A stretch of 37,931 nt of DNA, taken from Betaproteobacteria bacterium (GTDB lineage Bacteria > Pseudomonadota > Gammaproteobacteria > Burkholderiales > Rhodocyclaceae). The notes beneath the pieces were generated by a model. It was not told the DNA's origin, ran no database searches, and saw only the letters and a list, made by a program, of their open reading frames with translations. The stretch spans positions 1-37,931 of the forward strand of contig VGHJ01000022.1 in the NCBI GenBank assembly GCA_016868295.1, read 5' to 3'. A program made the translations under genes and the position numbers. Shown here in pieces: positions 2,500-33,237 of the stretch (the first letter of the stretch is position 1; each line of letters starts with the position of its first letter).

Positions 2500-3890
2500 A
2501 CACTTCGCTTGCCGAAACCTCGCTGGCCTTCGCCCTGCATGGCGCCGCCCGCGCCGTGGCCGGGGTCGCCGCCGGCCGCAACCTGAACGAGGCGCTGGCC
2601 GAGTTGTGGCGCGAACTGCCCGCGCTGCCGCCCGGGCAGCGCGGCGCCATGCAGGATCTCGCCTACGCCACGCTGCGCGCCTACGGGCGCGGCAGCTTCT
2701 TCCTCTCGCGCCTCATGGACAAGCCGCTGCGCGAGGAGGGCGTGCGCGCCCTGCTGCTGGTGGCGCTCGCCCGCCTCGAGGCGCGGCCGGAGGAGGCGCA
2801 CACCATCGTCGACCAGGCGGTGGAGGCCGCGGCGGCGCAGGCGCGCGGCCGCTTCAAGGCGCTCGCCAACGGCGTGCTGCGCAACTTCCTGCGCCGCCGC
2901 GCCGAACTCGAGGCCGCCGCCCTGCAGGACGATGTCGCCCGCTGGCAGCATCCGCGCTGGTGGATCGAGCGGCTGCGCCGCGACTGGCCGCGCGACTGGC
3001 AGGCGATCCTCGCCGCCGGCAACGACCGGCCGCCGATGACCCTGCGCGTCAACCGGCGCCGTGCCGCGGCGGCTGACTTTCTGGCGCGGCTGGAGGAAGC
3101 GGGGCTGCCGGCACAGATGCTGGACGGGGGCGCCATCCGGCTGGAACGGCCCGTCCCGGTGGAACGCCTGCCCGGCTTCGCCGAGGGGCTGGTCTCGGTG
3201 CAGGATGCCGGCGCCCAGCGCGCCGCGGCCTTGCTCGGCGCACACGACGGCATGCGCGTGCTCGACGCCTGCGCCGCGCCCGGCGGCAAGACGGCGCACA
3301 TCATCGAGTTGGCCGACGTCGACCTGCTGGCGCTCGATGCGGATGCCGGCCGCGCCCTGCGCATCCCGGAAAACCTGTTCCGCCTCGGCCTGCGCGCGGC
3401 GCCGTCGCCGGGCCGCCCCAAGACGGCGCGTACCAACCACACGGAGCAAAGCGAACCTTCGTCACCCCCTTCCTCGGGAAGGGGGGCGGGGGGTTGGCGT
3501 GTCGTCCCGGTCGATTGCCGGGCGACCGACGAGTGGTGGGACGGCCGCGAATTCGACCGCATCCTCGCCGACGTGCCCTGTTCCGCCTCGGGCGTCGTGC
3601 GCCGCCACCCCGACATCAAGTGGCTGCGGCGCCCGGCCGACATCGCGCGGTTTGCCCGCACCCAGGCGGAAATCCTCGACGCCCTGTGGCGGGTGCTCGC
3701 GCCCGGTGGTAAATTGCTGTATGCGACCTGCTCGCTCTTCGCCGAGGAGAACGGTCGCCTGGTCGCGGCCTTCGCCGCGCGACAGGAAGACTGCATGCGA
3801 TTGCCCGCCGCCGGCGCCTTAGACCTGCAGTTGCTGCCCGAAAAAGAACATGACGGCTTTTACTACGCGCTTCTCGAAAAGCAGGCCTGA
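2496..3890 (+). CDS. rsmB: 16S rRNA (cytosine-967-C5)-methyltransferase RsmB, with an in-frame repeat insertion
   Basis: RsmB/Fmu methylates C967 of 16S rRNA using S-adenosylmethionine. The 464-residue protein has the NusB-like RNA-binding N-domain (about 1-140) and the Rossmann methyltransferase domain: motif I DACAAPGGKT, motif IV DVPCSASGVVRRHPDIKW and motif VI ATCS, whose cysteine is the expected nucleophile. It is about 35 residues longer than E. coli RsmB (429). The excess is residues about 302-334, a Pro/Ser/Gly-rich, low-complexity stretch between the SAM-binding acidic loop and VVPVDCRATDEW. That stretch is encoded by a copy of the multi-hairpin repeat also found between ntrY/ntrX and trkA/trkH. 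Catalytic motifs are intact, so the enzyme is probably active with an extended surface loop. Confidence 0.95.
   Translation: MNTSLAETSLAFALHGAARAVAGVAAGRNLNEALAELWRELPALPPGQRGAMQDLAYATLRAYGRGSFFLSRLMDKPLREEGVRALLLVALARLEARPEEAHTIVDQAVEAAAAQARGRFKALANGVLRNFLRRRAELEAAALQDDVARWQHPRWWIERLRRDWPRDWQAILAAGNDRPPMTLRVNRRRAAAADFLARLEEAGLPAQMLDGGAIRLERPVPVERLPGFAEGLVSVQDAGAQRAAALLGAHDGMRVLDACAAPGGKTAHIIELADVDLLALDADAGRALRIPENLFRLGLRAAPSPGRPKTARTNHTEQSEPSSPPSSGRGAGGWRVVPVDCRATDEWWDGREFDRILADVPCSASGVVRRHPDIKWLRRPADIARFARTQAEILDALWRVLAPGGKLLYATCSLFAEENGRLVAAFAARQEDCMRLPAAGALDLQLLPEKEHDGFYYALLEKQA
3058..3081 (-). repeat. 24 bp bipartite motif, copy in rsmB
   Basis: On the minus strand: GAAAGTCAGCC, eight bases, ACGGC. 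Two changes in the first block relative to the consensus AAAAGTCAGTC. It encodes RAAAADF in a poorly conserved part of RsmB without adding length. Confidence 0.6.
3407..3497 (+). repeat. Multi-hairpin repeat inside rsmB
   Basis: Starts GCCGGGCCGCCCCAAG, continues through a degenerate middle hairpin (GAGCAAAGCGAA) and ends with a CCCCCTTCC/GGAAGGGGG hairpin and G-rich tail. It follows the order of the intergenic copies at 6582 and 9368 and has remained in frame, adding about 33 residues. Confidence 0.7.
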
Positions 3891-4470
3891 CGGCCTCGCA
3901 CGGCGGATTGCCGCGACGCTGCTGTTCCTCGCGTTCTCGCTGCTCTCCCTCGCCGCCGGCGCCGGCGAGATCAAGGTGAAGCAGGCCGAACTCGTCGCCG
4001 GCGAGGAGGTCTGGCTGGTCAACGCCGAGTTCGCCATCGCCCTCGGCCAGCGCCTCGAGGAAGTGATCGATCGCGGCGTGCCGCTCTATTTCGTCGCCGA
4101 GTTCGCGCTGACCAAGCCGCGCTGGTACTGGGCCGACGAGCACGTCGCCGGCAAATCGCAGACCTGGCGCCTCGCCTACAACGCCCTGACGCGCCAGTAC
4201 CGCCTGTCGGCGGGCGCGCTGCACCAGAACTTCGCCACCCTGGAGGAGGCGCTCGGCGTACTCGCCCGCCTGCGCGACTGGCCGGTGGCGGACAAGGCGG
4301 CGCTGAAGCCCGGCGAAGCCTACAGCGCGGCGCTGCGCCTCAAGCTCGACCTGACCCAGCTGCCGAAACCCCTCCAGGTCGACGCCATCGGCAACAAGGA
4401 CTGGAACATCAATGCCGTGATCAGGCGCTGGAGCGTCACGCCGGCGGCCGCGGAGGGCCCCGCGAAATGA
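3850..4470 (+). CDS. DUF4390 secreted/periplasmic protein
   Basis: A 206-residue protein of the DUF4390 family, found in betaproteobacteria beside rsmB and ntrY; function unknown. A positively charged N-terminus (RFSKSRPDGLARR) and a hydrophobic stretch (residues 20-36) ending AGA form a signal peptide with likely cleavage near residue 38, so the mature protein should be periplasmic or membrane-attached. Features include WLVNAEFAIALGQRLEEVID, RGVPLYFVAEFAL and a closing block with DWNINAVIRRWSV. The start overlaps the last 41 bases of rsmB in another frame, and the stop overlaps the ntrY start as ATGA (4467-4470). This tight coupling to a sensor kinase suggests it is part of the same expression unit and perhaps of the sensing process (inference). 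Confidence 0.85.
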   Translation: MTAFTTRFSKSRPDGLARRIAATLLFLAFSLLSLAAGAGEIKVKQAELVAGEEVWLVNAEFAIALGQRLEEVIDRGVPLYFVAEFALTKPRWYWADEHVAGKSQTWRLAYNALTRQYRLSAGALHQNFATLEEALGVLARLRDWPVADKAALKPGEAYSAALRLKLDLTQLPKPLQVDAIGNKDWNINAVIRRWSVTPAAAEGPAK

Positions 4471-6581: not shown

Positions 6582-6674
6582 GCCGGGCCGCCCCAAGGGC
6601 GGCGCAGCCAATGACATGGAGCCGCATTGCGGCGAACGGCCGTCACTCCCTTCCGCGGGAAGGGGGATGGGGGG
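6582..6674 (+). repeat. Multi-hairpin repeat between ntrY and ntrX
   Basis: Three successive hairpins: GCCGCCC/GGGCGGC, GCCGC/GCGGC, CCCTTCC/GGAAGGG, then a tail GGGGGATGGGGGGATGG. The tail supplies the only Shine-Dalgarno-like sequence before ntrX. Confidence 0.75.
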
Positions 6675-6686
6675 ATGGTAATAAAT

Positions 6687-7934
6687 ATGGCAAAGATTCT
6701 TGTAGTTGACGACGAAGTCGGCATCCGCGAGCTGCTCTCGGAGATCCTCTCCGACGAGGGCCACGACGTGCAGCTTGCGGAGAACGCCACGGCGGCGCGC
6801 GCGGCGAGGAACGGCGCGCGGCCCGACCTGGTGCTGCTCGACATCTGGATGCCCGACACCGACGGCATCACGCTCCTGAAGGAATGGTCGGCCGCCGGCC
6901 AGCTCACCATGCCGGTGGTGATGATGTCCGGCCACGGCACCATCGACACGGCGGTGGAGGCGACGCGCATCGGCGCGCAGGATTTCCTCGAGAAGCCGAT
7001 CGCACTGCAGAAGCTGCTGGCGGCGGTCAAGCGCACCCTGCAAAAGTCAGTCGCCGCGGCACGGCGCAGCGAGCTGACGCTGGCGGCCTTTTCCCGCTCC
7101 GGGCCGCTGCGCGACCTGAAGAAGCGCCTCGAGCAGGTGGCGGCGAAAAGCCGGGCGCTGATGCTCAAGAGCGGCAGCGGCAGCCTCGCCGAACTGATCG
7201 GCCGCAGCCTGCAGGCGCCGGGCAGGCCCTGGCTCGACCTGGCCGGCCACGGCCAGCCGCTCGCGCTGGAGGCGCTGGAGCAGGCCGCCGGCGGCGTGCT
7301 CTTCGCCGCGGAACTGGCCGCCCTCTCGCGTCTGCAGCAGAAGAACCTTGCCTTCGCCCTCGACCGCCTGGAGAAGTTCGACCTGCGCCTGGTGGCGGCC
7401 AGCGGCCAGACGGCGGCCGAGCTGGCAACGGCCGGCTTCGACGAGGCCCTGCTGCGCCGCCTCGCCGAGGTCAGCCTCGGCGCGCCGGGCCTGGCCGAGC
7501 TGAAGGACGAGGTGCCGGAACTGGCGACGCAGATCCTCACCCATCTCGTCGAGGCCGGCGAGGTGCCCCTGCGGCGCCTGTCCTCGGCGGCGTTGAACGC
7601 CCTGCGCAACCATGCCTGGACGGGCGGCTACGCCGAACTGCGCAACACGCTGCGCTCGCTCGCGCTCGCCGCGCTGGAGGAGGAGATCGCCGGCGAGGAG
7701 GTGACGCGCCTGCTCGCGCCGCAGCCCTCCGCCGCGGCGCAGGCCCTGCCGCTCGACCTGCCGCTGCGCGAGGCGCGCGAGGCCTTCGAGCGCGTCTATT
7801 TCGAGCACCACCTGCAGCTCGAAGACGGCAACATGACGCGGCTGGCGGAGAAGACGGGGCTGGAGCGCACTCACCTCTACCGCAAGCTCAAGGCGCTGGG
7901 CATTCAGCTCGGCAGGAAAGGCGAAGAACAATGA
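6687..7934 (+). CDS. ntrX: NtrX-like response regulator with degenerate AAA+ domain
   Basis: This 415-residue protein has a normal receiver domain: acidic pair D8-D9, phospho-acceptor D52 (LLDIWMPD), T/S at S81 and K103. It ends in a Fis-type helix-turn-helix (NMTRLAEKTGLERTHLYRKL). The middle aligns in length with a sigma-54 AAA+ module but is eroded: the Walker A GESGTGKE is replaced by a GSGSLAELIG-type stretch, no GAFTGA loop is present, and the Walker B LFLDE is LFAAE. It should therefore bind DNA and respond to NtrY, but cannot hydrolyse ATP or activate sigma-54 in the usual way. ATG 6687 begins the canonical AKILVVDDE; ATG 6675 in frame (adding MVIN) has better spacing to the G-rich repeat tail. 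The stop overlaps trkA (ATGA). A 24 bp motif copy encodes the receiver-AAA linker. Confidence 0.9.
   Translation: MAKILVVDDEVGIRELLSEILSDEGHDVQLAENATAARAARNGARPDLVLLDIWMPDTDGITLLKEWSAAGQLTMPVVMMSGHGTIDTAVEATRIGAQDFLEKPIALQKLLAAVKRTLQKSVAAARRSELTLAAFSRSGPLRDLKKRLEQVAAKSRALMLKSGSGSLAELIGRSLQAPGRPWLDLAGHGQPLALEALEQAAGGVLFAAELAALSRLQQKNLAFALDRLEKFDLRLVAASGQTAAELATAGFDEALLRRLAEVSLGAPGLAELKDEVPELATQILTHLVEAGEVPLRRLSSAALNALRNHAWTGGYAELRNTLRSLALAALEEEIAGEEVTRLLAPQPSAAAQALPLDLPLREAREAFERVYFEHHLQLEDGNMTRLAEKTGLERTHLYRKLKALGIQLGRKGEEQ
7042..7065 (+). repeat. 24 bp bipartite motif, copy in ntrX
   Basis: AAAAGTCAGTC, eight bases, ACGGC, perfect in both blocks. It encodes QKSVAARR in the linker after the receiver domain. 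Confidence 0.75.
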
Positions 7935-9367: not shown

Positions 9368-9463
9368 GCCGGGCCGTCCCAAGGATGGCGCAGCCAGCAC
9401 CCGGAGCCGCGCAGCGGCGAACCGCCGTCACCCCCTCCCCACGGGAGGGGGTCGGGGGGAGGG
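9368..9463 (+). repeat. Multi-hairpin repeat between trkA and trkH
   Basis: Three hairpins: GCCGTCC/GGATGGC (one wobble), GCCGC/GCGGC, CCCCCTCCC/GGGAGGGGG, then GGGGGTCGGGGGGAGGG, which is the ribosome binding site for the TTG start of trkH. Confidence 0.75.
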
Positions 9464-9467
9464 CGCT

Positions 9468-10925
9468 TTGAGCAATCCGCTGGCGGTCCTGCGCGTCTTC
9501 GCGCTGGTGCTGCTCGTCTTCGCCCTCACCATGCTGGTGCCGGCTGCGGTGGCCTGGTTCGAGCACGACAAGGCCGCCGGCGCCTTCCTGCGCGGCTTCC
9601 TCATCACGCTGTCCCCGGCCGCTCTGCTCTGGTGGCTGACGCGGCGCCATACCGAGGAGCTGCGCGTGCGCGACGGCTTCCTGCTGGTGTCCCTGGTCTG
9701 GGTGCTGGTGCCGGTTTTCGCCGCAATCCCGCTGATGGATTTCCTGCGCGGCATGAGCTTCACCGACGCCTATTTCGAGGCGGTGTCGGGACTCACCACC
9801 ACCGGCGCCACGGTGATCGAGGGGCTCGACACCCTGCCCTACTCGATCAACCTGTGGCGCGCCCTGCTCGTCTTCCTCGGCGGCATGGGCCTGATCGTGC
9901 TGGCGGTGGCCATCCTGCCGCTGCTCGGCGTCGGCGGGCGCCAGCTTTTCACGGCCGAGTCGCCCGGCCCGATCAAGGACACCAAGCTGACGCCGCGCAT
10001 AGCGCAGACGGCGAAGGGGCTCTGGCTGGTCTATTTCGGCCTGGCGATTGCCTGCACACTGGGCTACGCCTGGGCCGGCATGGGCTGGGCCGACGCCGTC
10101 ATCCACATGTTCACCACGCTCGGCCTGGGCGGCTTCTCCAGCCACGACGCCTCCTACGCCTACTTCAACTCGCCGCGCGTCGAACTCGTCGCCATCGTCT
10201 TCATGACGCTCGCCGGCATGAACTTCGCCACGCATTTCATGGCCGTGCGCCGGCGCACCCTGTCCTTCTACTGGGCGGATCCGGAGATCCGCTGGTACGT
10301 CGGCGTGATGTACGCCAGCGTGCTCGGCATCGCCGTCTATCTCTGGCAGACCCATACCTATGCCGATTTCTGGACCGCGCTGCGCTTCGCCGCCTTCAAC
10401 GTCGTGTCGATCGCCACCACCACCGGCTTCGCCAACACCGACTACGCGCAGTGGCCCTTCTTCGCGCCGCTGTGGATGCTCTTCCTCTGCAGCTTCGTCA
10501 CCTGCGCCGGCTCGACCGGCGGCGGCATCAAGATGATGCGCGCCATCATCGTCTTCCGCCAGGTGATGCGCGAGGTGGTGCACACCGTGCACCCGAACGC
10601 CGTGCGCACGGTCAAGCTGGCCGACGCGCCGCTGCCCAACAAGATCATCTTCGCCGTGCTCGCCTTCAGCTTCATCTACATGGCGATCATCGTCTCGCTC
10701 ACGCTGCTGATGGTCTTCGCCGGCCAGGATATCGTCACGGCCTTCTCCGCCGTGGTGGCGAGCTTCAACAACACCGGCCCGGGCCTCGGCCAGGTCGGCC
10801 CCGCGACCACCTTCAAGTCCCTCACCGACTTCCAGACCTGGGTGTGCACCATCGCCATGCTGCTCGGCCGCCTCGAGGTGTTCACCCTGCTGGTGGTGCT
10901 CACGCCCACCTTCTGGAGGAAATGA
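9468..10925 (+). CDS. trkH: Trk potassium channel subunit TrkH, first copy (TTG start)
   Basis: A 485-residue TrkH/KtrB-family channel. The four pore loops with filter glycines are visible: [43 protein letters not shown] and [13 protein letters not shown], set among about ten membrane segments. The frame begins with TTG at 9468 (MSNPLAVLRVF); the Shine-Dalgarno GGGGGAGGG just upstream is the 3' tail of a hairpin repeat. No good ATG exists before the conserved first helix. It is followed after 7 bases by a second, clearly similar trkH of identical length. Both would work with the TrkA encoded immediately upstream. Confidence 0.95.
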   Translation: MSNPLAVLRVFALVLLVFALTMLVPAAVAWFEHDKAAGAFLRGFLITLSPAALLWWLTRRHTEELRVRDGFLLVSLVWVLVPVFAAIPLMDFLRGMSFTDAYFEAVSGLTTTGATVIEGLDTLPYSINLWRALLVFLGGMGLIVLAVAILPLLGVGGRQLFTAESPGPIKDTKLTPRIAQTAKGLWLVYFGLAIACTLGYAWAGMGWADAVIHMFTTLGLGGFSSHDASYAYFNSPRVELVAIVFMTLAGMNFATHFMAVRRRTLSFYWADPEIRWYVGVMYASVLGIAVYLWQTHTYADFWTALRFAAFNVVSIATTTGFANTDYAQWPFFAPLWMLFLCSFVTCAGSTGGGIKMMRAIIVFRQVMREVVHTVHPNAVRTVKLADAPLPNKIIFAVLAFSFIYMAIIVSLTLLMVFAGQDIVTAFSAVVASFNNTGPGLGQVGPATTFKSLTDFQTWVCTIAMLLGRLEVFTLLVVLTPTFWRK

Positions 10926-10932: not shown

Positions 10933-12390
10933 ATGGAACGCCTGCTCGCCGTCCTCAACGTCTTCGCCCGCATCGCGCTGATGTTCGGCTGCGCCATGCT
11001 GCTGCCGATCGGCGTGTCGTGGTGGATCGGCGACGGCGCGCTGACCGCCTTCGACGAGGCTTTCCTCGGCACCCTGGTTATCGGCGGTGCGCTGCTCCTG
11101 GCGACGCAGCGTTTCAAGCGCGAACTGCGCCCCAACGACGGCGTGCTGCTGGTGGTGCTGTGCTGGGTGCTGCTGCCCGCCATCGCCGCCCTGCCGCTGA
11201 TCTTCGGCATTCCGGACGCCCGCTTCGCCGACGTCTATTTCGAGGCCGTGTCCGGCCTCACCGCCACCGGCGCCACCGCCTTTTCCGGGCTCGACAAGCT
11301 GCCGCCCTCGATCAACCTCTGGCGCACCGAGCTGCACTGGATCGGCGGCCTCGGCATCATCGTGCTGGCGGTGGCCATCCTGCCCCTGCTCGGCGTCGGC
11401 GGCCGCCAGTTGATGAAGGCCGAGGTGCCGGGGCCGGTCAAGGAAGCCGGCATCACGCCGCGCGTCACCGAAACGGCAAAGGGTTTCTGGATCATCTACG
11501 TTTTCCTGACGCTCCTGTGTACGCTGGCCTACGGCCTGTTCGGCATGAGCTGGCTCGACGCCCTGACGCATGCCTTCAGCACGGTGGCCCTCGGCGGCTT
11601 CTCCAGCCACGACGCCAGCTTCGCCTACTTCGATTCGCCCGTGCTGGAAGGGATCACCATCGGCTTCGCCCTCGTCTCCGGAATAAGCTATGTGACGCAT
11701 TTCGCCGCGCTCTCGGGGCGCAGCCTGCGGCCCTACCTGCGCGACGGCGAAGCCCCCTACTACCTGCTGGTGATGGCGGGCAGCGTGCTGCTGATCGCCG
11801 CCTACATCTGGCAGCAGAACTACTACACGGAGTTTTCCGTGGCCCTGCGCCACGCCGCCTTCAACACCGTGTCGGTGGCGACGACGCTGGGCTATGCCTC
11901 GACCGACTACTCGCGCTGGCCCTTCTTCGCGCCGCTGTGGATGCTGTTCCTGTGCAGCTTCACCACCTGCTCCGGCTCGACCGGCGGCGGCCTCAAGATG
12001 ATGCGCGCCATCATTCTCTACAAGCAGGTGTTCCGCGAGGTGGCGCATTCCATCCACCCCAACGCAACGACCTACATCAAGCTGGGCGGCGCCGTGGTGC
12101 CCAACAAGATCATCCTCTCGGTGCTCGGCTTCGGCTTCCTCTACATGGTGTGCACCATCTTCTTCACGCTGGTGCTGGCGGCGAGCGGCATCGACATCCT
12201 CAGCGCCTTCTCGGCGGCGGTGGCCTGCTTCAACAACACCGGACCCGGCCTCGGCCTGGTCGGGCCGGACAGCAACTACGGCGTTTTCAACGATTTCCAG
12301 GTCTGGGTCTGCAGTTTCGCCATGCTGCTCGGGCGGCTGGAAATATTCACCCTGTTGGTGGTCCTGACGCCTGCCTTCTGGCGCAAGTGA
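10933..12390 (+). CDS. trkH: Trk potassium channel subunit TrkH, second copy
   Basis: A 485-residue paralogue of the preceding gene, the same length and alignable end to end. Pore loops are [43 protein letters not shown] and [13 protein letters not shown], so all four filter glycines are kept while neighbouring residues differ from copy one (for example TTTG against TATG in loop one). The pair is a tandem duplication that has diverged; E. coli also has two TrkH-type subunits (TrkH, TrkG), which differ in affinity and cation preference, so functional specialisation is plausible. The start ATG 10933 lies 7 bases after the previous stop with AGGAAATGA upstream. Confidence 0.94.
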
Positions 12391-13942: not shown

Positions 13943-16123
13943 ATGACTTTGCCGATCATCCGCGTCGCGCTCGACGTGCCCTTGATGCGGGGCTTCGATT
14001 ACCTCGCATCCGATGCGCGCGCGGACGATGTCGGACGCCGCGTCGGCGTGCCGTTCGGGCGCGGCGAGAAGATCGGCGTCATTCTGGAAGTGCTGTCGAC
14101 AAGCGAACTGCCACCTGAAAAACTCAAGCCCGCGCGCGCCATCCTGCGCGATGCGCCGCCGCTCCCCGCCGACTGGCTGGCGCTGGCCGATTTCTGCAGC
14201 CGCTATTACCAGCATCCGCTCGGCGAAGTCATCGCCCTCGCCCTGCCGCCGGCCCTGCGGCGGCGCGACACCCTGCCGCGGCTGCCGGATCGCCGTCAGT
14301 TTCGCATCACGGAAAGCGGCCGCAGCGTCCTGCCGGATCTGAAGCAGCGCGGCATCGCCGCGCGCCTGCTGGCGGCGCTGGAACTCAACGGCGCGATGAG
14401 CGGCCCCGAACTGCGCGAGGTGTCCGCCGGCGCGTCAAGGCAACTGCCCGATCTCGTCGCGAAAGGCTGGCTGGCGGTCGAGCGCGAAGCGCCGAACCTG
14501 AAAGCTTCGCCCGGCCCGGAACTCCTGGCCGAGCAACGGCAGGCGGTCGACGCGGTGGCGCAGGCCCTGGGCCGCTTCGCGCCCTTCCTGCTGCACGGCG
14601 TCACCGGCAGCGGCAAGACGGAAGTCTATTTGCGCCTGATCGAGCAGGCGCTGGCGCGCGGCGACCAGGCCCTGCTTCTCGTGCCGGAGATCGCCCTGAC
14701 GCCGCAACTCGAGGCGAGGGTGAGCAATCGCTTTCCAGGCGCGAGGCTGGTCAGCCTGCACAGCAGCCTGGCCGAAGGCGCGCGCGCGGCGGGATTTCTT
14801 CAGGCACTCGAGGGCGCAGCCGACATCGTGCTGGGCACCCGGCTGGCGGTGTTCACGCCGCTGCCGCGCCTCGGCCTGATCGTCGTCGACGAGGAGCACG
14901 ATTCGTCCTTCAAGCAGCAGGAGGGCATGCGCTACTCGGCGCGCGACGTGGCGGTGTGGCGCGCCAAGCAGCGCAAGGTGCCGATCGTCCTCGGCTCGGC
15001 GACGCCCTCGCTGGAGAGCTGGGCCGCCGCGCAGGCCGGCCGCTACACCTTGCTCGAACTGACCGCCCGCGCCGTGGCGGAAACCATGCCCGAGGTGCGC
15101 TGCGTCGACACCCGCCGCGAGAAGCTGCAGGACGGCATGAGCGAGCACTTGCTGCGGGCCATCGCCTCGCGGCTGGAGCGCGGCGAGCAGAGCCTGATCT
15201 TCCTCAACCGGCGCGGCTACGCGCCGGTGCTGGCCTGCCCGGCCTGCGGCTGGGTGAGCCGCTGCCCCGGCTGCGCCGCCAACCTGGTGGTGCACCTCGC
15301 AGACAAGCGGCTGCGCTGTCACCACTGCGGGCGCGAGGCGCGCATCCCGGTCGCCTGCCCGACCTGCGGCAACCAGGACATCCATCCCTTCGGCCGCGGC
15401 ACGCAGCGACTGGAGGAAGCGCTCACTGCGCGCTTCCCGCAGGCGCGCATCCTGCGCGTCGATCGCGACAGCGCAAAAAGTCAGTCGCGCTGGCACGGCG
15501 TGCTCGAAGCCATCCACAAGGGGGAAGCCGACGTCCTCGTCGGCACGCAGATGCTGGCCAAGGGCCACGACTTCCCCAATCTGACCCTGGTCGGCGTGCT
15601 GAATGCCGACGCGGCGCTGTTCGCCGCCGACTTCCGCGCGCCGGAGCGGCTGTTCTCGCAGCTCATGCAGGTGGGTGGCCGCAGCGGCCGCGCCGCGCTG
15701 CCCGGCCAGGTGCTGGTACAGACGCAGTACCCAGACCATCCGCTCTATCGCGCGCTGGCGGCGCACGACTTCGCCGCCTTCGCCGCCGGGCAGCTCGCCG
15801 AGCGCGAACGGGCCGGCTTCCCGCCCTTCACCCACCAGGCCATACTCCGTGCCGAAGCGCCGGAACTGAAGCAGGCGCTCGCTTTCCTGAAAACGGCGGC
15901 GGAAACGGGCGGCGAGCTGCGCCCGGAAGAAGTCAGGTTCTACGATGCGGTGCCGATGCGCCTGCATCGCCTAGCCCATCTCGAGCGCGCCCAGCTGCTC
16001 ATCGAATCGCACAGCCGGCCGGCGCTGCAGGCCTTCCTCGCGGCCTGGCTGGAAGCGATCCGCGAACTGAAGGCACCGCGCGCCTTGCGCTGGCACATCG
16101 ACATCGACCCGCTGGAATTTTGA
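13943..16123 (+). CDS. priA: Primosomal protein N' (replication restart helicase PriA)
   Basis: PriA recognises stalled or repaired replication forks and reloads the replisome. The 726-residue protein has the N-terminal 3'-DNA-binding domain, a winged helix, and a SF2 helicase core with Walker A GVTGSGKT (219-226) and DEEH box (316-319). The zinc-binding insertion shows all eight cysteines as CPAC, CPGC, CHHC and CPTC. A C-terminal domain follows (GFPPFTHQAILRAEAPE). A copy of the 24 bp motif encodes the weakly conserved segment AKSQSRWHG without changing the family's local length. A CAGAAT box lies 6 bases before the ATG. The TGA abuts the stop of the convergent MFS gene with no gap. Confidence 0.96.
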   Translation: MTLPIIRVALDVPLMRGFDYLASDARADDVGRRVGVPFGRGEKIGVILEVLSTSELPPEKLKPARAILRDAPPLPADWLALADFCSRYYQHPLGEVIALALPPALRRRDTLPRLPDRRQFRITESGRSVLPDLKQRGIAARLLAALELNGAMSGPELREVSAGASRQLPDLVAKGWLAVEREAPNLKASPGPELLAEQRQAVDAVAQALGRFAPFLLHGVTGSGKTEVYLRLIEQALARGDQALLLVPEIALTPQLEARVSNRFPGARLVSLHSSLAEGARAAGFLQALEGAADIVLGTRLAVFTPLPRLGLIVVDEEHDSSFKQQEGMRYSARDVAVWRAKQRKVPIVLGSATPSLESWAAAQAGRYTLLELTARAVAETMPEVRCVDTRREKLQDGMSEHLLRAIASRLERGEQSLIFLNRRGYAPVLACPACGWVSRCPGCAANLVVHLADKRLRCHHCGREARIPVACPTCGNQDIHPFGRGTQRLEEALTARFPQARILRVDRDSAKSQSRWHGVLEAIHKGEADVLVGTQMLAKGHDFPNLTLVGVLNADAALFAADFRAPERLFSQLMQVGGRSGRAALPGQVLVQTQYPDHPLYRALAAHDFAAFAAGQLAERERAGFPPFTHQAILRAEAPELKQALAFLKTAAETGGELRPEEVRFYDAVPMRLHRLAHLERAQLLIESHSRPALQAFLAAWLEAIRELKAPRALRWHIDIDPLEF
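15476..15499 (+). repeat. 24 bp bipartite motif, copy in priA
   Basis: AAAAGTCAGTC, eight bases, ACGGC, perfect in both blocks. Encodes AKSQSRWHG, a different frame from the ntrX copy. Confidence 0.75.
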
Positions 16124-17320
16124 TTATCTGCGGCGGCCTTCGAGCAGAAACCAAGTGTAGCTCGCCGCCTGCAGCAGAACGAGCAGGATAAAGGTGCCTC
16201 GATAGGCGGCGGCCGTCGACAGCCCGCTGGCCGCCAGGCCGTCTATCAGCAGGCCCAGCCCCCACTGCAGCGAGAAGGCGCCGACGAAGGCGAGCAGGTT
16301 GAGCGCCGTCGTCACGCGGCCGGACAGCGCCGGATCGAAATGGCCGGCGAGCAGCGCATAGGCGAGCGAGCCGCCGGAGACGCCGACGCCGTAGGCGAAC
16401 CACATCGGCAAGGCGGGCTGCAGGCCGACCACCATCGCCGCCTGGGCGGCGAGCGCCAGGCCGTAGCCGCCGACGAGCAGGGCCTGCGGCCGGATGCCGG
16501 CGCGCGCCAGGCGCGTGGCGAAGGTGGCGATGCCGAGGTGGGAGACCAGCATGGCGAGGTTGAGCGCGAAGAGCACTTCCGCCGCGCCGTGGCGGCTCAG
16601 GCCATCGACATTCATCAGCCAGGGCACCGCCCACAGGCCCTGCACCGCCATGAAGCCGCCGGTGATCAGCGCCATCGGCGGCGCGTAGCGCCAGAAGACG
16701 CGATTGGCGAGGATGCCGGCGACGTCCTTCAACTGGGTGCCGAGGCTGTCGCGGGAGACGCCAGCCTCGCGCTGCGGCACGGAAAAGAAGATCAGCGCGG
16801 CGACCGCGACGAGCAGGAAAGTCAGCCCCTGGAACACGCCGCGCCAGCCGAACAGCGGCAGGGCGAACTCCAGCGGCAGGCTGGCGCTGACGGCGCCCAG
16901 CCCGCCCGAAGCCATGATGGCGCCGGTGAGGGAAGCCTGGCGCTCGGGCGGGAAGTTCTGCGCGAAGCCCTTGAAGGCGGCCATCAGGCAGGCCGAGACG
17001 CCGAGGCCGATCAGGCCGCGCGCCAGCGTGAGCTGGGTCGTCGACGTGCCGAAGGCGAAGAGCAGCGTGCCCGCCGCGGCGATGAGCATGAGAGCGGCCT
17101 CCACCCTGCGCGGGCCGTAGCGGTCGAGCAGCACGCCGAGCGGGATCTGGAAGGCGGCGAAGGTCAGCAGGTAGGCGCTGGTGAGCAGGCCAAGGTCGGC
17201 GGCGGTGAGTGACAGCTCGCGCGCCAGTTCGGGCGCGATGACGGCGTTCACCGTGCGCAGCAGGTAGGAGAGGAAGTAGCCTGCAGCGAAAGGCAGAAAG
17301 ACCCGAACCCAGATATTCAT
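16124..17320 (-). CDS. MFS transporter
   Basis: A 398-residue major facilitator with about twelve membrane segments. The loop between helices two and three carries the family motif as GVLLDRYGPRR, and helix four has RGLIGLGVSACLM. The substrate cannot be read from sequence; the family is broadly similar to the second MFS protein at 23975-25261. The stop codon begins at the base immediately after the priA stop, a zero-gap convergent pair. The gene lies 1 base downstream of the MOSC gene on the same strand, so it is probably the last gene of a can-MOSC-MFS operon. Confidence 0.88.
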   Translation of the reverse strand: MNIWVRVFLPFAAGYFLSYLLRTVNAVIAPELARELSLTAADLGLLTSAYLLTFAAFQIPLGVLLDRYGPRRVEAALMLIAAAGTLLFAFGTSTTQLTLARGLIGLGVSACLMAAFKGFAQNFPPERQASLTGAIMASGGLGAVSASLPLEFALPLFGWRGVFQGLTFLLVAVAALIFFSVPQREAGVSRDSLGTQLKDVAGILANRVFWRYAPPMALITGGFMAVQGLWAVPWLMNVDGLSRHGAAEVLFALNLAMLVSHLGIATFATRLARAGIRPQALLVGGYGLALAAQAAMVVGLQPALPMWFAYGVGVSGGSLAYALLAGHFDPALSGRVTTALNLLAFVGAFSLQWGLGLLIDGLAASGLSTAAAYRGTFILLVLLQAASYTWFLLEGRRR

Positions 17321-18986: not shown

Positions 18987-22658
<3,672 letters not shown>

Positions 22659-25929: not shown

Positions 25930-27423
25930 CTAAAAGTCAGTCCCCGCGGCACGGCGGTAGTGGATCGCCTCGGCGACGTGGGCGCTCGCGATCTTCTCGG
26001 CGCCGGCGAGGTCGGCAATGCTGCGCGCCACTTTCAGCACGCGGTGGTAGGCGCGCGCCGAGAGGCCGAGGCGGGCGATGGCCTGCTTGAGCAGTTGCGC
26101 GCCTGCCGCGTCGGGCGCGCAGAGCCTGTCGATTTCCTTCGTCGCCAGACGGTTGTTGGGCTTGCCCTGGCGCGCGAGCTGCGCCGCGCGCGCCGCCGTC
26201 ACGCGCGTGCGCACCGTGGCCGAAGCTTCGCCCGCCGCCTTCCCCTGCAACTCGCCCTCGGCCAGCGCCGGCACCTCGATGTGCAGGTCGATGCGGTCGA
26301 GCAGCGGCCCGGACAGCTTGCCGCGATAGCGCGCCACCTGGTCCGGCGTGCAGCGGCAGCGCGCTTCGCCCAGGTGTCCGCAGGGGCAGGGGTTCATCGC
26401 CGCGACGAGCTGGAACTGCGCCGGGTAGTCGACGCGAGCCGCCGCGCGCGCGACACGGATGTGGCCGGATTCGAGCGGCTCGCGCAGCGCCTCGAGCACG
26501 CGCCGCTCGAACTCGGGCAGCTCGTCGAGGAACAGCACGCCGTGGTGGGCGAGCGAGATCTCGCCCGGGCGCGGGTTGCCGCCGCCGCCGACGAGGGACG
26601 CGGCCGACGCCGTGTGGTGCGGCGCCTGGTAGGGCCGGCGCATCCAGTTCTCGACGCGGAAGCCGCCGCCGAGCGAATGGATGGCCGCCGTCTCCAGCGC
26701 CTCGTCCTCGCGCAGCGGCGGCAGCAGGCCGGGAAAGCGCACCGCCAGCATCGACTTGCCGGTGCCCGGCGGGCCGATCATGAGCAGGCTGTGGCCGCCC
26801 GCGGCGGCGACTTCCAGCGCGCGCTTGGCCTGCGCCTGGCCCTTCACGTCCGAGAGGTCGGGATAGTCCGGCGTTGCCGTCGCCGGCGCGCCGGCCCAGG
26901 GCGCCAGCGCCTGCCGGCCGTTGAGGTGCGCGCACACCTCGAGCAGCGAAGCCGCCGGCAGGATGGTGGCCGCGCCGACCAGCGCCGCCTCGGCCGCGCT
27001 CTGCGCCGGCAGCACGAAGCTGCGTTGCTCGCCGCGCGCGGCGAGGCACATCGCCAGCGCGCCGCGGATCGGGCGCAGCTCGCCGGTGAGCGAGAGCTCG
27101 CCGGCGAATTCGCATTCGCCGAGGCGCTTGCCGTCGATCTGCCCCGAGGCGGCGAGGATGCCCAGCGCGATGGCCAGGTCGAAGCGGCCGGATTCCTTCG
27201 GCAGATCCGCCGGGGCCAGGTTCACCGTGATGCGCGACGCGGGAAACTCGAAGTGCGCGTTCTGGATCGCCGCGCGCACGCGCTCGCGGGCCTCTTTCAC
27301 CTCGGTGTCGGCCAGCCCGACGATGGCGAAGCTCGGCAGCCCGCGGCCCAGATGCACCTCGACGGTGACCTCCGGCGCATCCATGCCGGCGAGGGCGCGG
27401 CTCTTCAAAACGGCGAGCGACAT
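25930..27423 (-). CDS. comM: ComM/YifB-family AAA+ helicase (Mg-chelatase-like)
   Basis: ComM is a ring-forming helicase that promotes branch migration during natural transformation. The 497-residue protein has the N-terminal YifB domain (VTVEVHLGRGLPSFAIVGLAD), the AAA+ core with Walker A GPPGTGKS (about residues 217-225) and Walker B VLFLDELPEF, the zinc-like CPCGHLGEARCRC insertion, and the C-terminal Mg-chelatase helical domain (GLSARAYHRVLKVARSIADL). The final residues RRAAGTDF and the first base of the stop codon are encoded by a copy of the 24 bp motif. The presence of ComM is relevant to whether that motif could be an uptake signal. Confidence 0.94.
   Translation of the reverse strand: MSLAVLKSRALAGMDAPEVTVEVHLGRGLPSFAIVGLADTEVKEARERVRAAIQNAHFEFPASRITVNLAPADLPKESGRFDLAIALGILAASGQIDGKRLGECEFAGELSLTGELRPIRGALAMCLAARGEQRSFVLPAQSAAEAALVGAATILPAASLLEVCAHLNGRQALAPWAGAPATATPDYPDLSDVKGQAQAKRALEVAAAGGHSLLMIGPPGTGKSMLAVRFPGLLPPLREDEALETAAIHSLGGGFRVENWMRRPYQAPHHTASAASLVGGGGNPRPGEISLAHHGVLFLDELPEFERRVLEALREPLESGHIRVARAAARVDYPAQFQLVAAMNPCPCGHLGEARCRCTPDQVARYRGKLSGPLLDRIDLHIEVPALAEGELQGKAAGEASATVRTRVTAARAAQLARQGKPNNRLATKEIDRLCAPDAAGAQLLKQAIARLGLSARAYHRVLKVARSIADLAGAEKIASAHVAEAIHYRRAAGTDF
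25932..25955 (+). repeat. 24 bp bipartite motif, copy at the 3' end of comM
   Basis: AAAAGTCAGTC, eight bases, ACGGC, perfect in both blocks. Its first base is also part of the comM stop codon; the motif encodes the last residues RRAAGTDF. Confidence 0.75.
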
Positions 27424-28186: not shown

Positions 28187-29248
28187 CTACCCAAACACCC
28201 GCGCCAGCGCCTCGTAGTCCGACAACTCGTTGTACACCTGCGCCGAGAGGCGCGCCCAGAGGCGGCCGGCGACGGGGAAGATCGGCACCTCGATGCGGTG
28301 CTCGTCGAGCAGCCGGCGGCGCCAGCGGCGCGCGGCCTCCTCGGTGCCGGCCTCGTCGACGGGCAGCGGCAGCGACACCATCGCCGCGCACATGCTGAGC
28401 GCCGCGCCCGGCGCCACGCGCCAGGCGTCCGCGATCAGCTCCGCCGCCGCCCGCGCCTGGCCGACCAGCTCGGACTGGTAGCAGTCGACGCCCAATGCCT
28501 CGATGAACGCCAGCGCCGCCGTCACCGCCAGCCGCGCGCTCGGGTCGTGCGTGCCGGGCCAGGCGAACTCCTGCTCGTAGCCCTCGCCGTAGAAGTTCGA
28601 CACCACCGTCGGGTGCAGGTCGCGCTGGCCCTCCGGCGTGGCGTAGAGGAAGGCGCAGCCCTTCGGCGCGCACAGCCACTTGTGGCAGTTGCCGACGTAC
28701 CACGTCATGCCCTGCGCCGCCAGCGCATCCAGCTCCAGCGGCAGCATGCCCGGCGCGTGCGCGCCGTCCACCAGCACCGGCACGCCGCGCGCGCGGCACA
28801 GGCGCACGATCTCCTCGAGCGGCGACACCGCCGCCAGCGGCGCGAAGACGTGGTCGACGATCGCCAGCCGCGCGCCGCCGGCAAGCGCCGCGTCGAAGGC
28901 CGCCGCCACCGCCTCCGGCCCCGGCAGCGGCCAGGGCACGCGCGCCGTGGCGTTCTCGACAAAAGTCAGTCGCTGCGGCACGGCGCCGACGAAGCCCGCC
29001 AGCCGCTCGCGCGCCGCCATCAGCGCCCCCGGCAGCTCATCCACCATGAAGCGCACCGGCTCGCGCTCCATCGCCTCGCGCCAGCGCGTCTGCGCCGCCA
29101 GCACATGCCGCGGCGCGGCGCCGAAGGAACCGTGGTTGAGGAAATGAATGTCCGGGTCGAGCGACCACAGGCTGCGCAGGGGGTGGCCGAAGGGGGTGTT
29201 GGGTGGGGGCAGGAGATCGGCGGGCACGGAATGTTTTTCCGGCGTCAT
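28187..29248 (-). pseudogene. Class V aminotransferase (isopenicillin-N-epimerase-like) with internal deletion
   Basis: An open frame of 353 residues matching PLP-dependent class V enzymes of the CefD-like group. The N-terminal HFLNHGSFGAAPRHV, the PLP aspartate region LVDGAHAPGM and the Schiff-base lysine in GNCHKWLCAPKG are present. However, after FVENATA the chain jumps directly to RVPWPLPGPEAV; relatives carry about 45 further residues here, including the strand/loop with the histidine that stacks on the PLP ring. The frame is kept but the enzyme is likely inactive or altered. The junction is about 15 bases from a copy of the 24 bp motif. A fragment holding part of the missing segment lies at 32287-32338. 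Treating it as a functional short homologue is the alternative. Confidence 0.65.
28961..28984 (+). repeat. 24 bp bipartite motif, copy in the aminotransferase gene
   Basis: AAAAGTCAGTC, GCTGCGGC, ACGGC, equal to the consensus. It lies about 15 bases from the internal deletion junction and encodes AVPQRLTF at the place where relatives have a similar-length strand. Confidence 0.75.
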
Positions 29249-30377: not shown

Positions 30378-31565
30378 ATGAAACCCCTGTCCCACTGCCT
30401 GCTCAGGGTCGAAACCGACCGGTTCGGCCCCTTCACCTTCCAGGCCGGCGTCGATCTCGAGGATCTCGTCGTGCCCCTGCAGCGGGTGGAAGACGCGCAC
30501 GAACTCTTCATCAAGACGCCCCTCAACCAGGTGGCCAGCCAACTCGAAAAAGAGGTCGTGGTCAGCAGCGTGTTCGGCACCAACACCATCGAAGGCGGCA
30601 CCCTGAGCGAAGCGGAAACCGCGCGGGTGCTCCAGCTCGACCCGGCCGAGGTCAAGGAAACCGAGCAGCGCCGCGCCGTGAACATCAAGGCGGCCTACGA
30701 TTTCGCGCAGCGTGCCGCCAAGACTGCCGGCTGGCGCCTGGACCTCGACTTCATCCGCACGGTCCACGCCCTTATCACGCGCGACCTGCCCGATCCGGAC
30801 ATGGTCCCCGGCGAGTTCCGCGACAACCCCAAGGGGAAGATCACCACCGTCGGCGACGAGGCCCACGGCGGCCGCACCAAGCCGCCCCAGTACGGCGGCG
30901 ACGTGAAGCTGCTCATGGGCAAGCTGATCGAATGGCACGACTGTCTGGTCGCAAACGAGGTGCCCGCGCTGATCCGCGCCCCGCTGATCCATTTCTACTT
31001 CGAAACCATCCATCCCTTCTGGGACGGCAACGGCCGCGTCGGCCGCGTGATCGAGGCCACGCTGCTGCAGGCGGCGGGCTACCGCTACGCGCCGTTCGCG
31101 ATGGCACGCCACTACCTCGACAACATCGACGAATACTTCACGCTGTTCAACACCTGCCGGAAAAACGCCGAGAAGCATGGGGCCGCGCCCAATCAGCCCT
31201 TCGTCCGCTTTCACCTGGAAGGAATGCGCGTCGTCATCCACCGGCTGCACGAGCGCGGCAACCGCATCGTCGGGGTGCTGCTCTACGAGAGCCAGATCCG
31301 GCGGGCGCTCGACCGCAAGGAAATCAACGCGCGCCAGTACACCATCCTCTCGCAGCTGCTCGACAAAGGCCCCACCGATCTCGAAGAGATGCGGCACAGC
31401 CCCTGGTATCAGAGCCTGTACCTCAAGCTCAACGACAAGACCCGGCTGCGCGACATGAACGCGCTGCGTGAAATGGAGCTGCTGTTCCTGGATGAAGCCA
31501 GCCGCCTCTGGCCGGGGACGATGCGAGCGGCGAACATCAAGCCCGTCGGAAGGAAGGGTTCCTGA
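30378..31565 (+). CDS. Fic family protein (class II, self-inhibited)
   Basis: A 395-residue Fic-domain protein, expected to transfer AMP or another nucleotide group to a target hydroxyl. The active loop HPFWDGNGRVGR starts with the catalytic histidine at residue 212. The inhibitory helix motif TNTIEG is at residues 68-73, the class II position N-terminal to the Fic core, so activity should be blocked by glutamate 72 until relieved. The C-terminal part is a winged-HTH-like region (ARQYTILSQLLDKGPTDLEE) as in SoFic-type proteins. It stands between TA modules, without a separate antitoxin gene because inhibition is built in. A homologous Fic 3' end recurs at 32340-32378. Confidence 0.92.
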   Translation: MKPLSHCLLRVETDRFGPFTFQAGVDLEDLVVPLQRVEDAHELFIKTPLNQVASQLEKEVVVSSVFGTNTIEGGTLSEAETARVLQLDPAEVKETEQRRAVNIKAAYDFAQRAAKTAGWRLDLDFIRTVHALITRDLPDPDMVPGEFRDNPKGKITTVGDEAHGGRTKPPQYGGDVKLLMGKLIEWHDCLVANEVPALIRAPLIHFYFETIHPFWDGNGRVGRVIEATLLQAAGYRYAPFAMARHYLDNIDEYFTLFNTCRKNAEKHGAAPNQPFVRFHLEGMRVVIHRLHERGNRIVGVLLYESQIRRALDRKEINARQYTILSQLLDKGPTDLEEMRHSPWYQSLYLKLNDKTRLRDMNALREMELLFLDEASRLWPGTMRAANIKPVGRKGS

Positions 31566-31611: not shown

Positions 31612-31640
31612 TCCTTGTCTTTCAATATCCGGCAGAACCC

Positions 31641-31880: not shown

Positions 31881-32278
31881 GTTTCCTGCTCGACACCCAC
31901 GCCCTCGTCTGGTCCGTTCTGGAACCCAGGCAGCTCGGCGAGAAAGCCCGTGCTGCGATGACCGATCCTTCCAGCGAGGTGTTCGTCAGCGCCGTAAGCT
32001 TCTGGGAAATTTCCCTGAAGACCGCGCTCGGCAAGCTGAAGCTGGAGAATTGCAGCCCCGAGACGCTGCTCGAAGCGGCGCAGGCGCAGTCATTCCAGCT
32101 TCTGCCGCTGACTCCAGAGGATGCCAGCGCCTTTCATCGGCTGCCCCGAACCGCGCACAAGGATCCTTTCGACCGCATGCTGATCTGGCAAGCCATCCGC
32201 GGGCGGCATACCCTGATCACCCGCGACGCCGACATCAAGCGCGCATACCGGTCGCACAAGCTCGCCACGCTCTGGTAA
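31877..32278 (+). CDS. PIN-domain toxin (VapC-like)
   Basis: A 133-residue PIN-domain ribonuclease with the acidic set D6 (LLDTHALVW), E44 (FWEIS), D99 (DPFDRML) and D117 (LITRDADI) visible. GTG at 31877 is used because it overlaps the antitoxin stop and no other start is available. VapC toxins of this type cut tRNA or rRNA; the target is not evident. A fragment of an aminotransferase gene begins 8 bases after its stop. Confidence 0.92.
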   Translation: MSFLLDTHALVWSVLEPRQLGEKARAAMTDPSSEVFVSAVSFWEISLKTALGKLKLENCSPETLLEAAQAQSFQLLPLTPEDASAFHRLPRTAHKDPFDRMLIWQAIRGRHTLITRDADIKRAYRSHKLATLW

Positions 32279-32286
32279 CACCCATC

Positions 32287-32338
32287 GCCCCGGCAGCGGC
32301 CAGGGCACGCGCGCCTCGATAAGCTCCAGCCCGTGGCG
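32287..32338 (-). pseudogene. Fragment of an aminotransferase gene carrying part of the segment missing at 28.9 kb
   Basis: On the minus strand this reads GRHGLELIEARVPWPLPG. The last third is encoded by 29 bases (32287-32315) identical to 28918-28946 inside the deleted aminotransferase gene. The preceding residues correspond to the segment that the gene at 28187-29248 has lost. It is therefore a scrap of an undeleted relative. Confidence 0.55.
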
Positions 32339-32339
32339 A

Positions 32340-32378
32340 CCGGCGAACATCAAGCCCGTCGGCAAACGCGGCGATTGA
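32340..32378 (+). pseudogene. 3' end fragment of a fic gene
   Basis: This encodes RPANIKPVGKRGD followed by TGA. Bases 32342-32362 are identical to 31529-31549 near the end of the intact fic gene, whose ending is ANIKPVGRKGS. The remaining codons differ, so it comes from another fic allele or paralogue rather than a recent copy of the neighbour. Confidence 0.6.
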
Positions 32379-32388
32379 GCGGATTGGG

Positions 32389-32412
32389 AAAAGTCAGTCT
32401 GCGCAACACGGC
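32389..32412 (+). repeat. 24 bp bipartite motif, copy upstream of higBA
   Basis: AAAAGTCAGTC, eight bases, ACGGC, perfect in both blocks, in non-coding DNA just after the fic fragment and before the higBA operator. Confidence 0.75.
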
Positions 32413-32428
32413 GGCACAGCCCTTGCCA

Positions 32429-32447
32429 TAGTCCCGGAATGGGACTA
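32429..32447. promoter_or_regulatory. Operator of the second HigBA module
   Basis: Perfect inverted repeat TAGTCCC-GGAAT-GGGACTA, 11 bases before the toxin ATG. This is the expected binding site for the HigA antitoxin encoded in the same operon. A 24 bp motif copy ends 16 bases upstream. Confidence 0.65.
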
Positions 32448-32458
32448 AGCTTCATCCC

Positions 32459-32752
32459 ATGCGTGTCATCGCCCTGCGCACGATCAAGCAGTTCATCGGC
32501 AAGCACGACGATGCGCGCGAACCGGCGCTGGCGTGGTACCGGCAGGTGCTCAGGTCGGACTGGGCGTCGCCGGCCGACGTGAAGCGCGAGATCGGCAGCG
32601 CCAGCATCCTGAAGGACGGCCGCGCGGTGTTCAACATCGGCGGCAACAAGTACCGGATCGTGGTCTGGATCAACTACCCCTACCGGGTCGTTTACGTGCG
32701 GTTCATCGGCACGCACCGCCAGTACGACGCGATCGACGCGCAAACGATATAG
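32459..32752 (+). CDS. higB: HigB-family toxin (mRNA interferase)
   Basis: A 97-residue toxin of the HigB2-type RelE superfamily: RVIALRTIKQFIGKHDDARE, WYRQVLRSDWASPADVKREI and the strand block FNIGGNKYRIVVWINYPYRV ending VRFIGTHRQYDAID. These are strong family matches. HigB toxins cut mRNA on the ribosome. The antitoxin gene follows after 17 bases; a palindromic operator precedes it. Confidence 0.93.
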   Translation: MRVIALRTIKQFIGKHDDAREPALAWYRQVLRSDWASPADVKREIGSASILKDGRAVFNIGGNKYRIVVWINYPYRVVYVRFIGTHRQYDAIDAQTI

Positions 32753-32769
32753 GCAAGCGAGGCATTCAC

Positions 32770-33129
32770 ATGGACATCAAACCCATCCGCAACAAACGCG
32801 ACTACGAGGCGGCGCTCGTGGAAATCGAGCGCCTGATGACGGCGAAGCGCAACACGCCCGAAGGCGACCGGCTGGACGTCCTGGTCACCCTCGTCGAAGC
32901 CTACGAGGCCAGGCACTTCCCGCTCGACCTGCCCGATCCGGTGGAGGCCATCAAGTTCGTGATGGAGCAGCGCAATCTCGCCGTCAAGGACCTGGTGCCC
33001 TACATCGGCCGGCCCAATCGCGTCTATGAAATCCTCAACCACAAGCGCCCGCTGACCATGGCCATGGCCTGGAAGCTGCACAAGGGGCTGGGCATTCCGG
33101 CGGAATCCCTGATCAAGCAGGCCGCGTAG
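32770..33129 (+). CDS. higA: HigA-family antitoxin (Xre HTH)
   Basis: A 119-residue antitoxin. The N-terminal half (PIRNKRDYEAALVEIERLM, RLDVLVTLVEAYEARHFPLD) is the HigA toxin-binding part; the C-terminal half is an Xre-type helix-turn-helix (VKDLVPYIGRPNRVYEILNH, then KRPLTMAMAWKLHKGLGIPA). It should repress its own operon at 32429-32447. The start ATG 32770 is just after GAGGC; the frame upstream is an overlap with higB in another phase. Confidence 0.93.
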   Translation: MDIKPIRNKRDYEAALVEIERLMTAKRNTPEGDRLDVLVTLVEAYEARHFPLDLPDPVEAIKFVMEQRNLAVKDLVPYIGRPNRVYEILNHKRPLTMAMAWKLHKGLGIPAESLIKQAA

Positions 33130-33213
33130 GACGGGCCGCCGGATTCTCCTCAGCCGTTCGTGGTGAGTAGCCCGCGCTCGCGGGCGTATCGAACCACGGA
33201 CGGCATCACCCAC

Positions 33214-33237
33214 AAAAGTCAGTCGCTGCAATACGGC
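33214..33237 (+). repeat. 24 bp bipartite motif, copy between higA and the helicase gene
   Basis: AAAAGTCAGTC, eight bases, ACGGC, perfect in both blocks, in the 148-base gap after higA. Nothing else is recognisable in that gap. Confidence 0.75.

Follow-up and report, generated by a model that had tools for sequence, protein, structure and literature searches.

Sequence-specific DNA uptake is described for two bacterial families, the Pasteurellaceae and the Neisseriaceae, in the pertinent passages of a 2016 review (PMC5031613), and the corresponding part of a 2026 terminator survey covering thousands of genomes reports uptake signals in the same two families (PMC13020248). Here we report a 25-bp motif that recurs through a 37,931-nt stretch of DNA from a Betaproteobacteria bacterium of the family Rhodocyclaceae (contig VGHJ01000022.1; hereafter the window), whose genus is Candidatus Desulfobacillus, and through the genomes of its relatives. 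We believe that this motif is probably a DNA uptake sequence, by which cells capable of natural transformation would recognize DNA of their own kind. On balance, we also think it likely that it marks a third, independently evolved uptake-sequence system in a Rhodocyclaceae clade, with a 25-bp tag in at least eight genera, at least two dialects, repeated losses within genera and a putative pilus receptor. As far as we have searched, the class is known, and the lineage, length and sequence of the motif are new. Among the matches listed in the open-licence literature there was no report of the motif strings or of uptake sequences in Rhodocyclaceae, Rhodocyclales or Betaproteobacteria, and a term search of the paper on Ca. 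D. denitrificans (PMC8402940) finds no mention of competence, pilus, repeat, uptake sequence or natural transformation.

The DNA uptake sequence (DUS) of the Neisseriaceae is read by the minor pilin ComP and, as the relevant sections of PMC3630211 describe it, is a very abundant, clade-specific motif with dialects, present in Neisseria in about 1900 copies in 2.2-2.3 Mb. The motif reported here is alike in these respects, and in having copies both inside genes and in the gaps separating them, a few of them paired in inverted orientation, in genomes that encode ComP-family pilins and ComEC. Unlike the DUS, it is 25 rather than 10-12 bp long, its sequence differs and its receptor is putative. 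The 10-12 bp, CTG-core consensus of the GCCGTCTGAA type is not matched, the consensus here being another 25-mer; ACGGC is, by eye, partly like the reverse complement of GCCGTCTGAA, a likeness that may be due to chance. With the uptake signal sequence (USS) of the Pasteurellaceae, as set out in part of PMC1626085, the motif shares a core with conserved downstream positions, an origin by substitution, two subclade types and an unusually strong consensus. It differs in being strong at both ends, in having a GC-rich rather than an AT-rich middle, and in belonging to another lineage. The resemblance of AAAGTCGGT to the USS AAGTGCGGT is one seen only by eye, and the USS core ANNNGCGGT with its AT-rich segments was not found in matrices that included 6 bp on each side or in the 30-bp flanks of the logo sites. 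The motif is distinct from the signals of both families, as a preliminary description of the window had stated.

Abundance, form and dialects of the motif

The window holds seven exact copies of AAAAGTCAGTC-N8-ACGGC and ten at up to three mismatches, against a mean of 0.20 and a maximum of 2 chance matches in 100 dinucleotide shuffles. Copies are not confined to the window. In its own genome (G000; 2.67 Mb in 118 contigs) there are 173 exact copies (82 on the forward strand, 91 on the reverse) and 452 at up to two mismatches, where a reversed-pattern control gives 0 and 1, respectively; the genome-wide count is thus well above chance, and relatives carry the motif as well. Iterated position weight matrices (PWMs), built on samples of seven motif-bearing genomes from six genera (G002, G011, G023, G016, G245, G184 and G138), find 1.8-2.6 sites per 10 kb, or roughly one per 4-5.5 kb, with 0-1 matches to the reversed matrix. 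In samples of 136-436 kb per genome, rather than whole genomes, no 10-mer is more over-represented than the motif word (read on either strand) in six of the seven, and only one is in G138, as would be expected of an uptake sequence. The excess of the exact 10-mer over expectation, moreover, is greater than that of all 30 single-mismatch words summed in G002, G023, G245, G184 and G138. An abundance of perfect over singly mismatched copies is, in the part of PMC1626085 that treats it, a puzzling trait that sets USS and DUS apart from ordinary binding sites.

Two motif-poor genomes behave differently. The motif word is not the top over-represented 10-mer in G009, and 79 kb of G013 yielded only 4 sites under the same PWM procedure. 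A replacement dialect in G009 was considered and set aside, as nothing comparable appeared in about 190 kb; a matrix seeded there ended on an unrelated pattern of low score (216 matches, 7 reversed). Other 10-mers are also strongly over-represented in individual samples, namely ACAGGCTTCT in G138 (12 seen versus 0.2 expected; loci L365-L370 and L307) and CAGCGTGTCG and GCAACGACAC in G016 (loci L249-L256, L185 and L299).

The preliminary description gave the motif as 24 bp with eight variable bases, and in this the logos correct it. Position 25 is G in all 30 distinct own-genome sites and in 96% of 89 sites from other records; six loci whose taxon is different or uncertain are excluded from this logo set. 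The N8 spacer is constrained as well: position 12 is almost never A, position 16 is mostly C, and positions 17 and 18 are mostly purines. Conserved sequence outside the 25 bp is slight (0-0.6 bit per flank position, highest in small samples), and a single copy is not palindromic.

Clade-specific dialects, as known from the uptake-sequence class, emerge from the matrices and listed sites. The dialect of the window's genus is AAAAGTCAGTC-(BSNSCRRB)-ACGGCG, with a relaxed middle; in G011, GTCAGCC is as frequent as GTCAGTC. A second dialect, RAAAGTCGG(C/T)GCTGGCGRNACGGCG-like, occurs in six genera, with one sampled genome each. In the genomes sampled from g2, g9, g19, g70 and g88 it reads RAAAGTCGG(C/T)GCTGGC(G/A)RNACGGCG with small variations, and G076 (g62) agrees with it, as judged from listed sites only. 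The form in G023, outside the window's genus, is AAAAGTCGGTGCTGGCGRGACGGCG, and the seven listed sites in G061 (g47) look intermediate.

Type I restriction sites are bipartite, and restriction sites are expected to be avoided in genomes. The bipartite look of the motif might accordingly suggest the target of a modification or nicking enzyme. Such sites, however, are far shorter than the 16-17 specified bases of the motif (more in dialect 2), and its over-representation is the opposite of the expected avoidance; of the explanations we weighed, this one is the least probable.

Origin and placement of the copies

Judging by orthologue alignments, the copies at the sites tested arose in place, by substitution or recombination and not by insertion, as the preliminary description had proposed. 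The test uses logic applied to the USS in a section of PMC1626085. At the priA site (15476), the 25 bp align gap-free with G007, G001, G002, G010, G011, G013 and G009 in alignments of 418-425 bp, with 1, 2, 1, 8, 3, 9 and 5 fixed-position mismatches, respectively. At the metH site (21641), every fixed base is preserved in G005, G001 and G002, and the spacer has changed; the motif-less G013 aligns gap-free, small gaps interrupt the site in G010, and the G011 alignment has a 12-base gap elsewhere. The comM site (25932) shows 0-1 fixed-position changes in six other members of the genus and is degraded in G013, and the ntrX site (7042) has a gap-free, motif-less orthologue in G011. The absence of insertions that had been claimed for the host genes is borne out for priA, metH, comM and the gene of a major facilitator superfamily (MFS) transporter, and for ntrX against G011 only.

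A pooled comparison covered 238 distinct query sites, 76 of them with any orthologue, in genus pairs at 78-99% identity, gap-free pairs with four or five mismatches being left uncounted. The motif was kept without gaps in 114 pairs and absent without gaps in 22, and 70 pairs had an indel within 20 bp. The 22 motif-absent pairs represent 14 query sites and are not all independent, the same metH site entering from different genomes. No motif-sized indel occurred in the 70 gapped pairs, where net indel lengths run from -12 to +14, none near 25. In ten motif-absent examples, identity was 0.52-0.68 in the site versus 0.75-0.88 in the flanks. Fixed positions in kept pairs were 83-100% identical versus a flank mean of 86%, a difference that is partly built in, 'kept' being defined by few mismatches.

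These alignments bear directly on the possibility that the copies were left by repeated insertion of a small copying element of the REP, RPE or MITE kind. Part of PMC1626085 notes that young elements of this sort typically have a very strong consensus. Yet motif-less orthologues align without gaps or motif-sized indels, the spacer varies between orthologous copies and there is little conservation beyond the 25 bp, so that we regard copying as highly improbable and have rejected insertion of a mobile repeat. Conservation at the protein level was likewise rejected for the set, in agreement with the preliminary description: coding copies are spread over several combinations of frame and strand (five of the six in G002), and the spacer changes at a conserved site. 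A single near-match, at 21220, is the one case for which it was accepted (see below).

To assess placement, genes were called on 1.6 Mb of the seven genomes by a simple in-house program based on codon usage. Among 343 sites, 218 are coding, 17 lie over gene ends, 29 are in convergent, 67 in tandem and 6 in divergent gaps, and 6 fall at sequence edges. Per kb, site density is 0.152 in coding DNA, 1.78 in convergent gaps, 0.71 in tandem gaps (taken whole, upstream parts not separated) and 0.175 in divergent gaps. Both orientations, many coding copies and an intergenic excess together match the uptake-sequence class. A promoter or operator role was rejected, sites between divergent genes being so few and at a density near that of coding DNA.

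The preference for convergent and tandem gaps could also be read as the mark of a global-regulator operator or a transcription terminator element, and a few copies do form long hairpins ending in TTTT: some tail-to-tail pairs give perfect or near-perfect hairpins of this kind (for example, L205:681 and L197:1849). A comparable arrangement, with DUS and USS paired in terminators, is described in part of PMC1852404. Most sites nevertheless lie within genes and hardly any between divergent ones, close tail-to-tail pairs are rare, and a single motif lacks the palindrome; such an element is very unlikely to account for the set.

The best rival is a site for an intracellular chromosome-organizing or recombination protein, of the Chi, KOPS, MatP or Noc kind. 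Chi, KOPS and matS are short motifs repeated through the chromosome, as the present motif is, but those motifs are either shorter or confined to a region, and some of them are polar. Genome-wide spread fits such a site, as do the fixed bases kept at orthologous positions inside genes and a spacing more even than random in three of seven genomes. In these, the coefficient of variation (CV) was compared with uniform placement: CV 0.67 versus 0.89 in G002 (P 0.0013), CV 0.55 versus 0.87 in G023 (P 0.0007) and a marginal result in G184 (P 0.046), the seven tests being uncorrected. The even spacing in these three also speaks for an uptake sequence. Against a chromosome-organizing site, polarity was not seen in G002, where over 20 stretches the G-rich strand carries 37 sites and the C-rich strand 48, a weak test with noisy local GC skew. 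Convergent and divergent gaps also differ strongly, and a range of 0 to 404 copies among the species of one genus (see below) would be odd for a housekeeping site. Overall, we consider this explanation unlikely, though it deserves more weight than the other alternatives.

Distribution, competence genes and a proposed mechanism

The motif is restricted largely to one clade. Among 80 of 94 stretches listed, records with the motif are mostly metagenome-assembled genomes (MAGs) of Rhodocyclaceae or Rhodocyclales, together with a 'Betaproteobacteria' MAG, a 'Sulfuritalea sp.' MAG and AP021857.1, the complete genome of Candidatus Desulfobacillus denitrificans. Six loci among them are titled as unrelated taxa; L037, L058, L062, L108, L110 and the viral-collection loci were dropped before counting, and L088 also from the logo set. 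The exact form occurs in 15 of 60 relatives, all within the window's genus, at 9 to 249 copies, and in 15 of the 16 genus members when the window's own genome is counted; G009 has none. In the other genus represented by G023, the 25-bp form has 715 matches at up to three mismatches versus 39 in the control.

A pattern covering both dialects was then scanned on 395 genomes of the family and tallied from the resulting table at a threshold of at least 20 copies. It is reached by 65 of the 395 genomes, in 8 of 68 genera (15/16 genomes in g1, 21/22 in g2, 1/1 in g9, 13/19 in g19, 1/2 in g47, 1/1 in g62, 4/4 in g70 and 9/9 in g88); the remaining 330 have 19 or fewer, and the reversed control at most 2. 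Within g19, copies range from 0 to 404 (the motif-poor G033, G117 and G279 versus the motif-rich G245, G336 and G346). Beyond the family, 291 genomes from other families of the order (of 300 order genomes) have at most 14 copies, the highest being G475 with 14, then 4 and 3, and other genomes of the class have at most 2 (n=368).

Beyond the family, several stray genomes match the second dialect perfectly. G428, G046, G905 and others carry a few perfect copies, and G475:C45 has five copies on one contig, which suggests that strays are transferred DNA or mis-binned contigs; the motif could serve as a marker of contamination or transfer. Similarly, L088, from a record titled Bacteroidia bacterium Bin_39, has two copies on a 5-kb contig and is probably a mis-binned Rhodocyclaceae contig. 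The matches listed for G054, which belongs to a different family of the order, include nine identical copies of GAAAGTCAGTCCCCGCAAAACTGCG and four that differ by one base; their identical spacers point to a genuine inserted repeat whose likeness to the motif is fortuitous. In a collection of 2.9 million viral contigs, 20 stretches contain the exact pattern, of which 11 fit the full matrix (score >30, G at position 25) and 9 do not. These matches say little about the phages of motif hosts.

Genes for DNA transport are widespread in these bacteria. In 66 chosen genomes, ComEC (PF03772) was found in 65 and a ComP_DUS-family pilin (PF16732) in 61, motif-rich and motif-free alike. Compared with solved structures, the G000 pilin gave only general type IV pilin matches, mostly at the N-terminus. 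In a ComEC tree of 40 genomes, with at least 40 copies taken as motif-bearing, every sampled motif-bearing genus falls in one clade (support 82/99). Motif-poor members branch within g1, g2 and g19, and the motif clade also takes in two genera on long branches that are free of the motif (G020 and G027). The motif label requires 6 changes on this tree versus 12.4 when shuffled, and none of 500 shuffles was as low. One gain and several losses is the simplest story, and several gains also fit. The motif-poor G009 and G013 are sisters by MetH, not by ComEC; faster ComEC evolution in these two was considered as a signal and discarded, as their MetH is also faster.

We infer receptor binding, preferential uptake and competence from these observations, and the following pathway can be proposed. 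A type IV pilus minor pilin, or another surface receptor, would bind duplex DNA bearing the 25-bp tag, and pilus retraction would pull the tagged DNA in. ComEC would then pass one strand inward, where RecA would recombine it. Tagged fragments would be taken up and recombined more often than others, near-consensus alleles would spread by this biased uptake, and copies would therefore accumulate in place wherever the protein or gene end tolerates them. Lineage-specific dialects would drift when the receptor changes.

Several observations weigh against an uptake sequence. In length, the motif exceeds the uptake cores known so far. The preliminary description likened a density of about one copy per 4 kb to that of uptake sequences; the figure itself holds, at one per 4-5.5 kb, but it is below the approximately one per 1.2 kb of Neisseria. 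The excess of the exact 10-mer equals that of single-mismatch words in G016 and is below it in G011, and in raw counts the exact core word exceeds them only in G002 (55 versus 30). Spacing is no more even than random in G011, G016, G245 and G138. Inverted pairs are few, with three tail-to-tail pairs within 60 bp in a strict scan and one more found with the matrix. Finally, neither ComEC nor the ComP-family pilin, the two families searched across the 66 genomes, tracks the motif, both being present in motif-free relatives too. At the same time, the proposal of an uptake or recombination signal is supported by what the sequences contain, and none of the three outcomes that had been named as telling against it (a count near chance, copies limited to the window, motifs as insertions) came about.

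If the motif is indeed an uptake sequence, the bacteria that carry it are, or recently were, naturally transformable, and these environmental betaproteobacteria would provide a further natural case in which the origin of such tags, their shifts of dialect and their loss can be compared. Close relatives nearly free of the motif would help to show what the receptor must look like, and the contrast in copy number within g19 suits a search for the receptor gene.

Copies and other features of the window

The nine copies listed in the preliminary description are all present, seven of them exact and those at 3058 and 21220, on the minus strand, with two mismatches each. The list needs amending at two points: a tenth copy, at 16817, was missed, and that at 21220 probably reflects conserved MetH codons. 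Host genes were assigned by Pfam as rsmB, metH, priA, comM and genes for the MFS transporter, an aminotransferase and an NtrX-like regulator, which confirms the reported presence of comM.

Exact copies on the plus strand lie at 7042..7066 (PWM score 36.7), within the NtrX-like response-regulator gene (open reading frame (ORF) 6627-7934, plus strand; Pfam Response_reg and Sigma54_activ_2); at 15476..15500, within priA (13943-16123, plus strand); and at 21641..21665, within metH (18987-22658, minus strand), the latter two placed by pattern, Pfam and PWM. Further along, 25932..25956 is at the 3' end of comM (25930-27423, minus strand), where it forms the last comM codons, and 28961..28985 (PWM score 39.9) is within a class-V aminotransferase-like gene (28187-29248, minus strand). 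The exact copy at 32389..32413 (plus strand) is apparently intergenic, overlapping a minus-strand ORF (32090-32743) without a Pfam match, and that at 33214..33238 (plus strand), downstream of a PLD/DUF3427 helicase gene (33278-36415, minus strand), is exact over 24 bp with a final A in place of G.

Three copies are less perfect. The minus-strand copy at 3057..3081 (two mismatches; PWM score 30.6) is within rsmB (ORF 762-3890, plus strand). The plus-strand copy at 16817..16841, within the MFS transporter gene (16124-17320, minus strand), is degenerate (three mismatches; PWM score 25.8), and its orthologues fit better, with 1 mismatch in G007, 2 in G005 and 2 in G002. The near-match at 21219..21243 (minus strand, two mismatches), within metH, probably arises by coincidence from conserved MetH codons and is not a real copy, because a near-identical string is present in 6 of 8 genus orthologues, including the metH of G009, which is almost motif-free.

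Other features of the window stand apart from the motif. A Fic-domain gene (30378-31565) and the PLD/ResIII/DUF3427 helicase gene (33278-36415) form a stretch that resembles a defence or mobile island and adjoins the two apparently intergenic copies, 825 bp apart. Beside trkA, two adjacent 485-codon ORFs (9468-10925 and 10933-12390, plus strand) share long stretches of 75-82% identity; they look like a tandem gene duplication and are probably potassium-uptake subunits. Lastly, a second dispersed repeat is present as three 49-nt copies, 80% alike, at 3451-3499, 6632-6680 and 9417-9465; it is of the type GCGAAC..CGTCAC-CCCCTTCC..GGAAGGGGG, GC-rich and, by eye, hairpin-like.

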